Source: Streptomyces sp. MST-110588 (lineage in GTDB: Bacteria > Actinomycetota > Actinomycetes > Streptomycetales > Streptomycetaceae). Taken from it: DNA of 64,000 nucleotides. Of the stretch, positions 17,662-20,897 are shown piece by piece; positions within the stretch are counted from its first letter, which is position 1; every line of letters begins with the position of its first letter. The notes beneath the pieces are model-generated. The model was not told the origin of the DNA and did no database searches. It was given only the letters and a program-made list of their open reading frames with translations. The stretch covers positions 1,911,001 to 1,975,000 of the forward strand of contig NZ_CP074380.1 of assembly GCF_022695595.1 (NCBI RefSeq), read 5' to 3'. The translations under genes were made by a program, and so were the position numbers.

Positions 17662-19698
17662 GTGGATCCGGTGATCGTGGTCGGGGCCGGGCCGGTCGGC
17701 CTCGCGCTGGCCCTCGCGCTCGCCCGGCACGAGGTGCGCTGCGTGGTCCTGGACGAGGCGCCGGCCGGATCCGGTGACGTACGCCCCGCCCGTACGGCCG
17801 TACTGAGCCCCGAGACGGCCGGATTCCTGGACCGGCTGGGCTGCCGGGACACCCTGGAGGCGGCCGGGACGCGCTGGGCGGCCTGGCGTACGGTCCACCG
17901 CCGCCGGCTCGTGGAGCGGGTGGAGTTCGACGGCGAGCAGCCCTCCCCCCTCCATGTGCCGCAGCACGCCTTGGTCCACGCGCTGCGGGCCGCGCTGGCC
18001 CGGGAGTACCTGGTGCGCGTCGTCCCCGGCAGCCGGCTGGACGCCCTGGAGCAGGACGAGCACGGCGTCCGCGCCCATACGCGCGGCGCCGACGCCCGCT
18101 GGTGGCAGGGCAGTTACCTGGTCGGCTGCGACGGTCCGCGGTCCACGGTCCGCAAGCTGCTGGAGATCCGCTTCCCGGGCCGTACGGCCGTCGAACGGCA
18201 TGCCGTCGCCGCGCTGCGCACGGAACTGCCGTGGCCGGGCGAGGCGTTGGCGCACCGGGCGGCGCCGCGGTACGGCGGGGGCGGGGCGGGCCGTATGGAC
18301 GGCGGTGGTCGTATCGGCGCTGGTCGAATGGGCGGTGCGGGTGGTGAGGTCAGTGCCCGGCCGCTCCCGGACGGGGTGTGGCGGCTGGACTGGCTGCTGC
18401 CGCCGGGACGGGACCTGGTCACGCCGGATGCGCTGGTCGCCCGGATCCACGAGACCCTGGGGGGCTGGGCGGCGGAAGCCGGGGCGGGCGGTGCGGCGTG
18501 GGCCGTGAGCGACGCGGGAGAAGCGGCGGGCGCGGCGGCGGGACCGGCGCACGCACGGGCCGTACGGGACGGGCGCGACGAACGGAATGAGAGAGGTCAG
18601 CGGGGCGTAGGGGACGAGCGAAACGTACGGGACGGTCGGGCCGTACGGGACGGGCGAGGTGAGCCGGAAGGGCGGGGTGAGCCGGACGTCCCGGCGTACG
18701 AACTCCTGGACACCGGCGTGCACACCGTCCACCACCGCCTGGCACGGCGCTGGCGGCGCGGCCGGGCGTTCCTGGCCGGGGACGCCGCGCATCTGCTCGG
18801 CGCACTGGGCACACAAGGGCTGGAAGAAGGGCTGCGGGACGCCGAGAACCTGGCCTGGAAACTGGGTCTGGCCTGGCACCACGGCGCCTCGGAAGTGCTG
18901 CTGGACAGTTACCAGACCGAGCGGCGGAGCGCCGTGGCGACCCGGCTGCGCGCCGCCGACCAGGCGCTCGCTCTGCTGCGCGGCGGCGAGAGGGGGCGCT
19001 GGCGGGCCGTACTGCCGGGCGTCGCCCGCGGGCACACGGCCCTGCTGACGGACGGGCATCTGGGGCGCGGCTCACTGGGCGCGCCCCCCACGTACACCCG
19101 TACGCCGCTCGCGCCGGACGCCGACGCGCTCCCCGGCGAAATCCCGTTGGAGACCGTACCCGGCGCGCCGGTCCTGGACGTGCCGGTGACGGCGCCGGAC
19201 GGGACGGTGGTCGGGCTGCGCGAGCGTCTGGGGCGCGGGCTGCTGGTGGTGCTGGTCGCCCCCGGGACGGGCGTGTGGGAGCGACGGCACTGGCTGTCGG
19301 CGGGGCTGATGCCGCTGCTGTCCGACGCGGTCAGCGCCCTGCCGATGGCGGCGGAGGTGCTGGTGGCGGAGGAGTACCCGGGCGCCGCGGCACACACGGT
19401 CCTGGTCGTACGGCCCGACGGGTACCTGGTGGCGGCACTGGCGGGGGTGCGGCCCGACGAGCTGACCGCGTGCGCCGAGGCGGTACGGGGCGGCTCGGCT
19501 GAGCGGACGGTGACCTCAGGGCGGGTGGCGGGTGAAGCGGACGGTGCACGGCGGACGCACGCCCCGGCGGCAGACACCCCGGGGAACAGCCCGCTCTCAA
19601 AAGAAGATTCGGACGACAAGCCGACGGACGGCCCGGGAGCTGCGGAAACGGAGATTTCCGAGGACCGGTCCGGCCATCCGGCGGTTGACCCTGCGTGA
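17662..19698 (+). CDS. FAD-dependent aromatic-type monooxygenase with repetitive insertion
   Basis: 678 residues starting at GTG (GGGGAG upstream). The N-terminal Rossmann motif VVGAGPVGLALALALARHE binds FAD; the DG motif is VGCDGPRSTV; the GD motif is FLAGDAAHLLGALGTQGLEEG, so it belongs to the group A (PHBH/MhpA-like) hydroxylases using NAD(P)H and O2. The C-terminal ~170 residues resemble the thioredoxin-like domain of phenol/pentachlorophenol hydroxylases. Two low-complexity inserts interrupt it: a Gly/Arg/Met stretch (about 210-232) and a VRDGR-type repeat (about 295-335), probably disordered loops. The acidic tail overlaps the promoter of the cysteine leader unit downstream. A TTGACG at 17552 could belong to its own promoter. 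Substrate unknown. Confidence 0.85.
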   Translation: MDPVIVVGAGPVGLALALALARHEVRCVVLDEAPAGSGDVRPARTAVLSPETAGFLDRLGCRDTLEAAGTRWAAWRTVHRRRLVERVEFDGEQPSPLHVPQHALVHALRAALAREYLVRVVPGSRLDALEQDEHGVRAHTRGADARWWQGSYLVGCDGPRSTVRKLLEIRFPGRTAVERHAVAALRTELPWPGEALAHRAAPRYGGGGAGRMDGGGRIGAGRMGGAGGEVSARPLPDGVWRLDWLLPPGRDLVTPDALVARIHETLGGWAAEAGAGGAAWAVSDAGEAAGAAAGPAHARAVRDGRDERNERGQRGVGDERNVRDGRAVRDGRGEPEGRGEPDVPAYELLDTGVHTVHHRLARRWRRGRAFLAGDAAHLLGALGTQGLEEGLRDAENLAWKLGLAWHHGASEVLLDSYQTERRSAVATRLRAADQALALLRGGERGRWRAVLPGVARGHTALLTDGHLGRGSLGAPPTYTRTPLAPDADALPGEIPLETVPGAPVLDVPVTAPDGTVVGLRERLGRGLLVVLVAPGTGVWERRHWLSAGLMPLLSDAVSALPMAAEVLVAEEYPGAAAHTVLVVRPDGYLVAALAGVRPDELTACAEAVRGGSAERTVTSGRVAGEADGARRTHAPAADTPGNSPLSKEDSDDKPTDGPGAAETEISEDRSGHPAVDPA

Positions 19699-19714
19699 AC
19701 CACCGTGCTTGACT
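19685..19714 (+). promoter_or_regulatory. Predicted promoter for a leaderless cysteine leader peptide
   Basis: TTGACC (19685-19690) and TTGACT (19709-19714) are 18 bases apart. A start of transcription 7-8 bases further falls on or next to the GTG at 19722, so the leader peptide mRNA would have no 5' untranslated region. The -35 lies inside the end of the monooxygenase gene. The -10 is a weak match. Confidence 0.45.
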
Positions 19715-19721
19715 CCGCAAC

Positions 19722-19808
19722 GTGACGGTCAACGGCTCGCATCTGTGGCGGAGGGTCCATCTGGACCTGGTCCGCTACGCGGGCTGCGTATGTCCTCCGT
19801 CCTGCTGA
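19722..19808 (+). CDS. Cysteine-rich leader peptide (candidate cysteine-responsive attenuator)
   Basis: An open frame of 28 codons from GTG: it begins MTVNGSHLWRRVHLDLVR, continues YAG and ends with CVCPPSC before TGA, so three of the last seven residues are cysteine. The middle (RRVHLDLVRYAG) matches the actinobacterial 'putative leader peptide' pattern found ahead of sulfur genes. It ends 88 bases before cysteine dioxygenase. Ribosome stalling at the Cys codons when Cys-tRNA is short would alter folding of the RNA downstream; in mycobacteria, polycysteine leaderless short frames are known to act this way. No ribosome site precedes the GTG, consistent with leaderless translation. Confidence 0.75.
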   Translation: MTVNGSHLWRRVHLDLVRYAGCVCPPSC

Positions 19809-19828
19809 TCCGCTTCTTTCTTCCCTCG

Positions 19829-19867
19829 CGCGGCCCCGGGCGTCCTCGATCGTTCCCGGCTGCCGCG
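19829..19867 (+). promoter_or_regulatory. Candidate attenuator hairpin between the leader peptide and cysteine dioxygenase
   Basis: CGCGGC (19829-19834) pairs with GCCGCG (19862-19867), and the inner CCGGG with CCCGG, making an interrupted GC-rich stem around CGTCCTCGATCGTT. The loop piece CGATCG can instead pair with a downstream CGCGATC near 19873-19880. Such competing pairings are what an attenuator needs, but I could not fold the RNA. Confidence 0.4.
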
Positions 19868-19896
19868 TCTCTTCGCGATCATTCAGGACGGTTTCC

Positions 19897-20439
19897 GTGC
19901 CCGACGTACGTACTTCGGCGCGCCCACGCGCCACCGGGGCCGACAACGGCCCCAGCTCCTGCGATCTCCTGGACTTCGTCCGCCGTACCGCCGCGGACGC
20001 ACCGCTGATCGCCGCGCTGCCCCTGGACCCCGAAGGCCGCACCTGGATCCGGCTGGACGGCCCCGGCGGCAGCGAGGCATGGCTGATCGGCTGGCCGCCC
20101 GGCACGGGCACCGGCTGGCACGACCACGGCGGCTCGCGCGGCGCGTTCGCGACGGCGGCCGGCGAACTGACCGAACAGTCGCTCGCGGCCCAACTGCCCA
20201 CCGAGGGCTGGAAAACCCTCGAACTGGCCGACGGCGTGGACCGTGAACGCACACTGCGCGACGGCCGGGGCCGCGCCTTCGGTCCGCACCACGTCCACCA
20301 GGTCCTCAACCTCTCCCCCGACACCCACGCCGTTTCTGTACACGCCTACCACCCGCCGCTGCCACTGATGCGGCGCTACAGCCGCAGCGGGCCGGTCCTG
20401 CGCCTGGAAGAAGTGGAACTCCCACAGGAATGGCAATGA
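19897..20439 (+). CDS. Cysteine dioxygenase family protein
   Basis: 180-residue cupin that adds O2 to the cysteine thiol to give cysteine sulfinate. The iron ligands appear as H-D-H in TGWHDHGGSRGAFA and as the later histidine in FGPHHVHQVLN; WIRLDGPGGSEAWLIGW is typical of bacterial CDO. GTG start with AGGACGG upstream. Overlaps the rhodanese gene by four bases (ATGA), so the two are co-translated. The cysteine-rich leader upstream suggests the pair is regulated by cysteine supply. Confidence 0.88.
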   Translation: MPDVRTSARPRATGADNGPSSCDLLDFVRRTAADAPLIAALPLDPEGRTWIRLDGPGGSEAWLIGWPPGTGTGWHDHGGSRGAFATAAGELTEQSLAAQLPTEGWKTLELADGVDRERTLRDGRGRAFGPHHVHQVLNLSPDTHAVSVHAYHPPLPLMRRYSRSGPVLRLEEVELPQEWQ

Positions 20440-20897
20440 ACGATCACGACCACGATCACGACCACCCGAACACATCGATGCATATCCGCACAGACAGGCC
20501 CACGGCCGCCCCCTCCGAGGCCAGCGCCATCGACACGCTGCTGGAGCGCGCTCGCCGCGAGCTGGACCGGGTGGGGCCGCGGGAAGCCGCCGCTCTCCAG
20601 GAGAGCGGCGGGCTGCTGGTGGACATCCGGTACGCGGCGCTGCGCGAGCGGGACGGCACCATCCCCGGCGCCCTGATCGTCGAACGCAACGAACTGGAAT
20701 GGCGCCTGGACCCCACCAGCGAGCACCGTGCCCCCGAGGCCACCGGTCACGATCTGCCGGTCGTGGTGGTATGCGACGAGGGGTACGCCTCCAGTCTGGC
20801 AGCCGTCTCACTACGTCGCCTGGGCCTCCACCAGGCCACCGACCTGACCGGCGGCTTCCAGGCATGGCGCGCAGCAGGCCTCCCCACCCACAACTGA
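20436..20897 (+). CDS. Rhodanese-like sulfurtransferase
   Basis: 153 residues with one rhodanese domain: LVDIRYAALRERDGTIPGAL, then the active-site loop VVVCDEGYASSLAA carrying the catalytic Cys, and LTGGFQAWRAAGLPT at the end. The start ATG 20436 fits AGGA at 7 nt; ATG 20430 is an alternative. The N-terminus is an alternating His/Asp run (DHDHDHDH), a probable metal-binding tail. Co-operonic with cysteine dioxygenase; together they handle cysteine oxidation and sulfane-sulfur transfer. Confidence 0.85.
   Translation: MNDHDHDHDHPNTSMHIRTDRPTAAPSEASAIDTLLERARRELDRVGPREAAALQESGGLLVDIRYAALRERDGTIPGALIVERNELEWRLDPTSEHRAPEATGHDLPVVVVCDEGYASSLAAVSLRRLGLHQATDLTGGFQAWRAAGLPTHN

Follow-up and report, generated by a model that had tools for sequence, protein, structure and literature searches.

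A 64,000-nt stretch of Streptomyces sp. MST-110588 DNA (contig NZ_CP074380.1, positions 1,911,001–1,975,000; called the window, in whose numbering all positions are given) carries a short, Cys-tailed leader frame ahead of a cysteine dioxygenase (CDO) gene and an overlapping gene for a rhodanese-domain protein. The analyses described here indicate that this arrangement is probably a cysteine-responsive translational attenuator of the CDO-rhodanese operon, which would act by sequestration of the Shine–Dalgarno (SD) sequence of the CDO gene. According to the proposed mechanism, transcription would start on the GTG of the leader, which would be read without an SD. With no ribosome near the end of the leader, its tail would pair with the CDO SD (helix H2) and the operon would be poorly translated, while a ribosome with its A site at the UGU codon or beyond would cover the tail and free the SD; one held two codons earlier, at Cys codon 14, would free it much less. 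As the time spent at UGU would depend on charged Cys-tRNA, expression would track the cysteine supply. Translation of the leader, the stall, the response to cysteine and its sign are the parts that we infer. The features used below are the following:

19685–19690, + strand: −35 element TTGACC
19709–19714, + strand: −10-like element TTGACT (TTCACT or TGTACT in relatives), a conserved block in the rows of upstream sequence
19722–19808, + strand: putatively leaderless, Cys-tailed leader frame of 28 codons, NF042934 family (translation, profile match, conservation)
19746–19777, + strand: predicted hairpin H1 inside the leader, from the Trp to the Tyr codon (98.9% of cells paired in 72 sequences with little variation; folds)
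19785–19787, + strand: first invariant Cys codon, TGC, codon 14 of the core (Cys in 57/57 distinct cores; TGC 45, TGT 12)
19791–19793, + strand: second invariant Cys codon, UGU, codon 16 of the core, the proposed sensor (TGT in 57/57 distinct cores)
19797–19804, + strand: H2 5′ arm, CCGTCCTG, complementary to the CDO SD and covering the Pro, the Ser and most of the terminal Cys codon
19806–19813, + strand: leader stop and upper H2 arm, TGATCCGC (folds; pairs less constant than in the core)
19875–19881, + strand: upper H2 3′ arm, GCGATCA (folds; pairs less constant than in the core)
19884–19891, + strand: H2 3′ arm, CAGGACGG, which includes the CDO SD and pairs with the leader tail
19897–20439, + strand: CDO gene (CDO_I, Pfam PF05995; 146.9 bits, above the gathering cut-off of 23)
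20430–20897, + strand: rhodanese-domain gene overlapping the CDO end (Pfam PF00581, 54.1 bits)

The frame, which begins with GTG at 19722 and stops at 19806–19808, translates into VTVNGSHLWRRVHLDLVRYAGCVCPPSC. It had been recognized in a preliminary description of the region, made from the sequence, and was borne out both by this translation and by conservation. The genome collection, searched at the protein level, yielded at least 555 relatives of the CDO, the best 80 of which, all titled Streptomyces, were used as CDO loci, and a leader was called where the pattern WRR[VI][HY]x[DE][LM] occurred in a short frame at most 900 nt upstream of the CDO. Besides the window, 76 of the 80 loci had the leader, with printed tails reading RYxxCxCxPxx or close to it. 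Three loci without a call (L039, L057, and L079) had merely 24, 104, and 28 nt of upstream sequence, respectively. The fourth, L028, had no leader in 2.5 kb; there the CDO lies in another gene context, following an apparent binding-protein gene, and the sole GGACGG is more than 1 kb ahead of the CDO. The 77 leader cores (76 and that of the window) represented 57 distinct DNA sequences. A search for the exact core pattern gave matches in 7 of the 61 Streptomycetaceae genomes, from 2 of 17 genera, and the single match outside Streptomyces (G328, L284) had the leader, then CAGGACGG, and then the dioxygenase. A looser motif scan at 25 loci of distant dioxygenases (L259–L283) hit three of them (L270, L275, and L279), with matches that lay either on the other strand or over 600 nt ahead of the gene.

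The start codon, placed by rule at the ATG or GTG lying 8–10 codons before the Trp codon, was GTG in 67 and ATG in 10 of the 77 loci. The TTGA of the −35 element preceded it by 36 or 37 nt in all 77, though the number of codons before Trp was 8, 9, or 10, as one would expect of a transcript starting directly with the start codon. The −10-like element would set the start of the transcript at the GTG or not more than 1 nt away, thus leaderless translation, as originally proposed, appears well supported in silico. The −35/−10 pair with its 18-nt spacer was likewise found as described, but a strict sigma-70 scan gave no promoter, the −10 having no A at position 2. At the level of sequence, the comparison of loci establishes the leader, its fixed promoter distance, the invariant UGC/UGU codons, and the complementary arms presented below, while the fall in the cost of opening the SD was computed.

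The tail of the leader appears to consist of two constant Cys codons and a drifting one. The terminal residue (core codon 20) was Cys in 49 of the 57 distinct cores and was lost in eight, where Arg, Val, Ser, or Phe stood instead, so the conservation of the Cys codons predicted for close relatives applied in full to codons 14 and 16 but only in part to the terminal one. The UGU at 19791–19793 is likely the sensor, while the terminal Cys codon seems to serve mainly as an RNA arm, the UG of which pairs with the SD.

The tail CCGUCCUG (Pro-Ser-Cys codons) is complementary to the CDO SD, CAGGACGG, and in the predicted helix H2 the tail with the stop codon, CCGUCCUGcUGAUCcGC, is paired with GCGAUCAyUCAGGACGG, which includes the SD. 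GGACGG stands ahead of the CDO in 77/77 loci, and the CDO start, which was in frame in 75/77 loci as picked by script, lies 58–265 nt (median 77) past the leader stop; translational coupling by overlap was set aside on account of this distance. Perfect tail–SD helices of at least 8 bp occurred in 16 of 20,000 Markov-1 gaps, and the 19722–19908 RNA folded better than its shuffles (z −3.2; 1 of 200 shuffles equally good). In the formal pair counting, made on 72 sequences (five of the 77 were excluded for long or misread gaps), sliding the partner by 1–3 columns lowered pairing to 50.2% or less. The own arms of the loci paired better than swapped ones (−20.06 vs. −19.01 kcal/mol, matched in 0 of 5000 permutations; 106 CDO loci, 98 distinct arm pairs). 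The mean SD–tail pairing was 0.86 in 26 of 30 CDO loci (four failed the SD pattern and were not scored), as compared with 0.03 at cysO (28 of 29 loci), 0.06 at sulfite reductase (8 of 8), and 0.09 at luciferase-like loci (4 of 12). Among the groups scored, this pairing is specific to the CDO group. Sequestration of the SD by the leader tail is well indicated. The hairpins that the preliminary description placed in the gap before the dioxygenase do occur in the computed folds, but the structure would rather be an SD sequestor made from the leader's own tail, and the region suggested for folding, 19808–19897, misses half of the key helix, whose 5′ arm lies inside the leader frame.

The effect of a translating ribosome was modelled by masking a footprint that extended 15 nt upstream and 12 nt downstream of the first A-site base, and the cost of freeing AGGACGG was then calculated at 72 loci. 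The median opening cost was 12.7 kcal/mol without a ribosome and 10.2, 9.9, 9.8, 7.1, and 6.0 kcal/mol with core codons 10, 12, 14, 15, and 16 in the A site, respectively, reaching 5.5 kcal/mol at the stop codon; the main fall is between the two invariant Cys codons. The corresponding values for the window were 14.4 kcal/mol without a ribosome, 11.2 at codon 14, 6.2 at codon 15, 3.3 at codon 16, and 5.5 at the stop. Release of the SD by a ribosome at UGU is less well indicated than the sequestration itself.

Several observations weigh against this reading of the RNA. The permutation of own against swapped arms ignores kinship. The proportion of paired cells in the 72 sequences was 95.7% versus 95.6% in shuffles, only two pairs changed in both arms, a count reached in 16 of 500 shuffles, and the covariation score was matched by 28 of 500, so covariation support for the helices is at best faint, which can be attributed to the arms hardly varying. 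The eight core H2 positions were unpaired in 0 to 6 of the 72 sequences (5, 1, 6, and 4 among the counts) and those of the upper stem in up to 25. In three of the 26 scored CDO loci (L142, L151, and L155) pairing was weak or elsewhere, and L142 had no tail pairing at all. The opening cost in the window dipped also at codons 10 and 12 (7.1 and 6.5 kcal/mol, below the medians of 10.2 and 9.9). The median probability of an unpaired SD was 0.14 at codon 14 and only 0.19–0.22 from codon 16 to the stop (0.12 and 0.18–0.23 with the downstream RNA alone), and whatever the state it exceeded 0.5 in no more than 6% of loci; it barely switches because the GC-rich RNA finds other partners.

The NCBIfam profile NF042934 ("putative leader peptide", cis_reg_atten) includes the leader with 33.1 bits against a curated cut-off of 27, and as this family was found ahead of sulfur genes, the resemblance to actinobacterial sulfur-gene leaders noticed earlier proved correct. 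Matches occurred in all 41 Streptomyces genomes searched. Altogether 115 were read (5 from the own genome and 110 from others; 110 distinct sequences), 30 of which are CDO leaders including that of the window. All 115 showed [HA]xDLxRx5C, a motif favoured by both the profile search and the parser, which did not select for codons. The final Cys codon was TGT in 114 of the 115 (84/85 non-CDO and 30/30 CDO leaders), although Cys codons in 29 frames of the window were TGC 72 times versus TGT 8 times (10% UGU). The Arg at −2, the Asp, the Leu, the Arg at +5, and the final Cys were fixed in 85/85 non-CDO leaders, with varying codons (for Arg +5, CGC 41, CGT 15, AGG 15, CGG 12, and CGA 2). Cys at +4 in these leaders was encoded by TGC 40 times versus TGT 3 times, a single Cys was present in the matched part of 25 of them, and just two had Cys at the codon-14 position.

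Beyond the genus, a search at E 1e-4 detected NF042934 in only 7 of the 149 genomes covered in the phylum. NF042933, the Ms5788A leader profile, had matches in 103 of the 148 genomes covered in the class, 22 of them over its cut-off. These searches returned 56 loci, of which 53 were parsed; 37 of the cores were new, and 35 of these 37 had TGT. Some of the loci are from Streptomyces. At L219 a stop codon stands exactly at the place of UGU. The other non-TGT core, L237, had been parsed in the wrong frame and showed TGT on inspection. In the own genome, family members precede ThiS and PALP genes (cysO-cysM-like), a sulfite/nitrite reductase, a rhodanese protein of two stretches, and a symporter, whose leader scores below the NF042934 cut-off. 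Ten representatives elsewhere precede PALP, two luciferase-like monooxygenases, a sulfatase (L089), a sulfite reductase, two binding proteins of family 5 and one of NMT1 type, a symporter, and a gene without Pfam match.

The fixed peptide and the near-obligate UGU suggest a nascent-chain-assisted, codon-specific Cys sensor. It is conceivable, albeit tentatively, that a single sensor serves the whole class, in which RxHxDLxRx5 places the ribosome so that the obligate UGU, a codon read by wobble, reports Cys-tRNA or cysteine, polycysteine tracts are a lineage addition, the downstream RNA sets the output (with the leader's own tail as the sequestor in the Streptomyces CDO group), and the CDO is wired into a sulfur-supply regulon. 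As an alternative that can be combined with the SD-sequestering attenuator, RxHxDLxRx5 may itself arrest the ribosome at UGU, making it hypersensitive to low Cys-tRNA or responsive to cysteine, similarly to TnaC, which arrests in response to tryptophan. We consider this possible but below even chances. In its favour, five residues are invariant in the non-CDO leaders while their codons vary, the single Cys of 25 leaders is few for classical attenuation, and UGU is kept at one position while the +4 Cys is mostly TGC. On the other hand, the fixed letters, unlike the codon choice, are partly built in by the profile search and the motif parsing, and H1 puts a further constraint on these codons in the CDO group.

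The direction of control is unproven, and the view that scarcity opens the gene comes from the anatomy of the leader and a simple kinetic model. In this exclusion model with queueing, codons 14, 16, and 20 depended on Cys-tRNA and the SD was taken as open with the A site anywhere from codon 15 to the stop. In 16 of 16 parameter sets the SD was open for longer with Cys-tRNA at its minimum than with full supply, while Cys at codon 14 limited the open time to 0.66–0.83 instead of 0.99–1.0. Given the mechanism, the balance tips slightly toward opening of the CDO gene by scarce Cys-tRNA; opening by abundant cysteine would be a distinctly weaker candidate, and some other outcome rather improbable. 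Mycobacterial cysteine leaders open under scarce Cys-tRNA, and the computed sign is the same, so the inversion feared earlier for catabolic genes is not predicted. What stands against opening by scarcity is the catabolic physiology of CDO and expression on feathers: passages of PMC7181669 report a 50.2- and 8.3-fold rise in the mRNA of two CDO genes of Streptomyces sp. SCUT-3 in feather medium, the assignment of paralogues to leaders being absent from these passages and the medium differing from the control in more than cysteine, and a passage of PMC12763843 describes dioxygenase genes of a second feather degrader as also up late. This induction also speaks for arrest of the nascent chain, since the CDO gene would open at abundant cysteine if cysteine itself triggered the arrest. 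Abundant cysteine might open the gene without any arrest if ribosomes waited at the UGC of codon 14 under low cysteine, leaving H2 closed, and reached the stop under high cysteine, opening H2 in passing. The position of the largest fall in computed opening cost, between the two Cys codons, the presence of Cys 14 in every CDO core but in hardly any other Streptomyces leader, and the physiology of CDO fit this scheme; it is nevertheless unlikely, since in the kinetic model Cys 14 merely caps the open time without reversing the sign, and C-x-C occurs also in many NF042933-type leaders of other genera.

Two further explanations were considered. Regulation at the level of transcription, either by recruitment of Rho to the untranslated gap or by formation of a terminator, might be suspected from a pyrimidine-rich stretch seen by eye past the leader stop and from the Rho involvement proposed for mycobacterial cys leaders in passages of PMC1262725. 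We regard it as improbable: the conserved complementarity targets the SD, and the 19600–20000 region contained no terminator-like site, such as the intrinsic terminator that alternates with an antiterminator in trp-type attenuation, which was set aside. As the SD sequestor is built from the leader's own tail and no such site is present, control is most likely translational; of the ribosome-mediated attenuation predicted in the preliminary description, the structures able to attenuate were found, while termination is not the probable mode. A T-box or riboswitch was considered and set aside; Rfam gave 0 matches up to E = 1 in 19600–20000. That the leader is a chance open reading frame, its conservation reflecting something else, is hardly credible. 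Short frames with at least three Cys in the last eight codons numbered 1 in the window versus a mean of 0.9 in 20 Markov-1 sequences, thus such frames arise by chance about once per 64 kb and the case for the leader rests on conservation; the CDO leaders, however, show a codon-position pattern and differ in length by in-frame 3-nt and 6-nt changes with the promoter distance kept, and they belong to a family-wide profile.

The mechanism is of a known kind. In the titles, abstract openings and passages covered by the literature search, outside which most subscription journals fell, we found no description of a leader before a Streptomyces cysteine dioxygenase, of a leader tail serving the CDO group as sequestor, of a strict UGU rule, or of the fixed peptide. 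The leader passes the cut-off of NF042934 and has the same motif, but a tail that pairs with the SD distinguishes the CDO group from the three other groups scored. With the Ms5788A family (NF042933) it shares the R-x-x-D-L-x-R...C-x-C pattern but reaches only 18.6 bits against a curated cut-off of 45. Canestrari's work of 2020 reportedly deals with polycysteine leaderless ORF attenuators in mycobacteria. In passages of PMC13236596 and PMC9094748, which cite it, translation attenuation is modelled with the SD unmasked by a stalled ribosome, and a Cys-clustered ORF before cysA2 appears in a passage of PMC4633059. These attenuators are similarly leaderless Cys-coding frames before sulfur genes, but they contain a run of Cys codons, whereas here two fixed Cys codons and an optional third precede a catabolic gene. 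The actinobacterial cys-operon leader peptides in passages of PMC1262725 are also short frames whose Cys codons lie close to the stop, again with no conserved terminator; they differ in belonging to cys/cbs genes of Mycobacterium, P. acnes, and B. longum, for which these passages report no conserved structure. The LEU element before leuA, from the same source, resembles H2 in that its base stem is formed by the run of regulatory codons pairing with the downstream SD, but it involves a pseudoknot and leucine codons, the mutation of which is reported there to be without influence on regulation.

If the attenuator reading is true, the output of CDO would be tied to how well cysteine is decoded. 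The CDO shares its kind of leader with sulfite reductase, cysteine-synthase-like, rhodanese, sulfatase, and luciferase-like genes, which means either that it scavenges sulfur or that the common signal acts on it with inverted sign. In classical attenuation a run of codons is read and nearly any peptide will do. Here both the peptide and the choice among synonymous codons at one position are constant across numerous genomes and target genes, so that help from the nascent chain in amino-acid sensing can be tested directly in an easy host. The solved structures nearest to the CDO of the window (19897–20439) are 8qfl–8qfr, all titled cysteine dioxygenase, which we take to be possibly thiol dioxygenases acting on another substrate. 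Upstream, the leader frame is preceded by an FAD-binding-domain gene ending at 19698.

The own genome encodes a second dioxygenase, 38% identical to the first (L291, reverse strand, G000:C1 near 4982.4–4983.2 kb), and both Streptomyces dioxygenases seem to be under Cys-coding leaders, although of different kinds. The Cys-tailed frame preceding the second, MPAMPALRLTRAYGSLCAAQARCRCSSC, differs from the NF042934-type leader and had no match in NCBIfam. In a set of 30 Streptomyces loci including that of the own genome (L291, L295–L324), the dioxygenase motif was located in 27, and 24 of these had a Cys-tailed frame, with tails such as RCRCSSC and often RCSCCCCSSC-like ones, while the identical filter applied to the reverse strand gave 0 of 27. 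Past the stop of this frame, GCTCC[AG]GCTG recurs in many loci.

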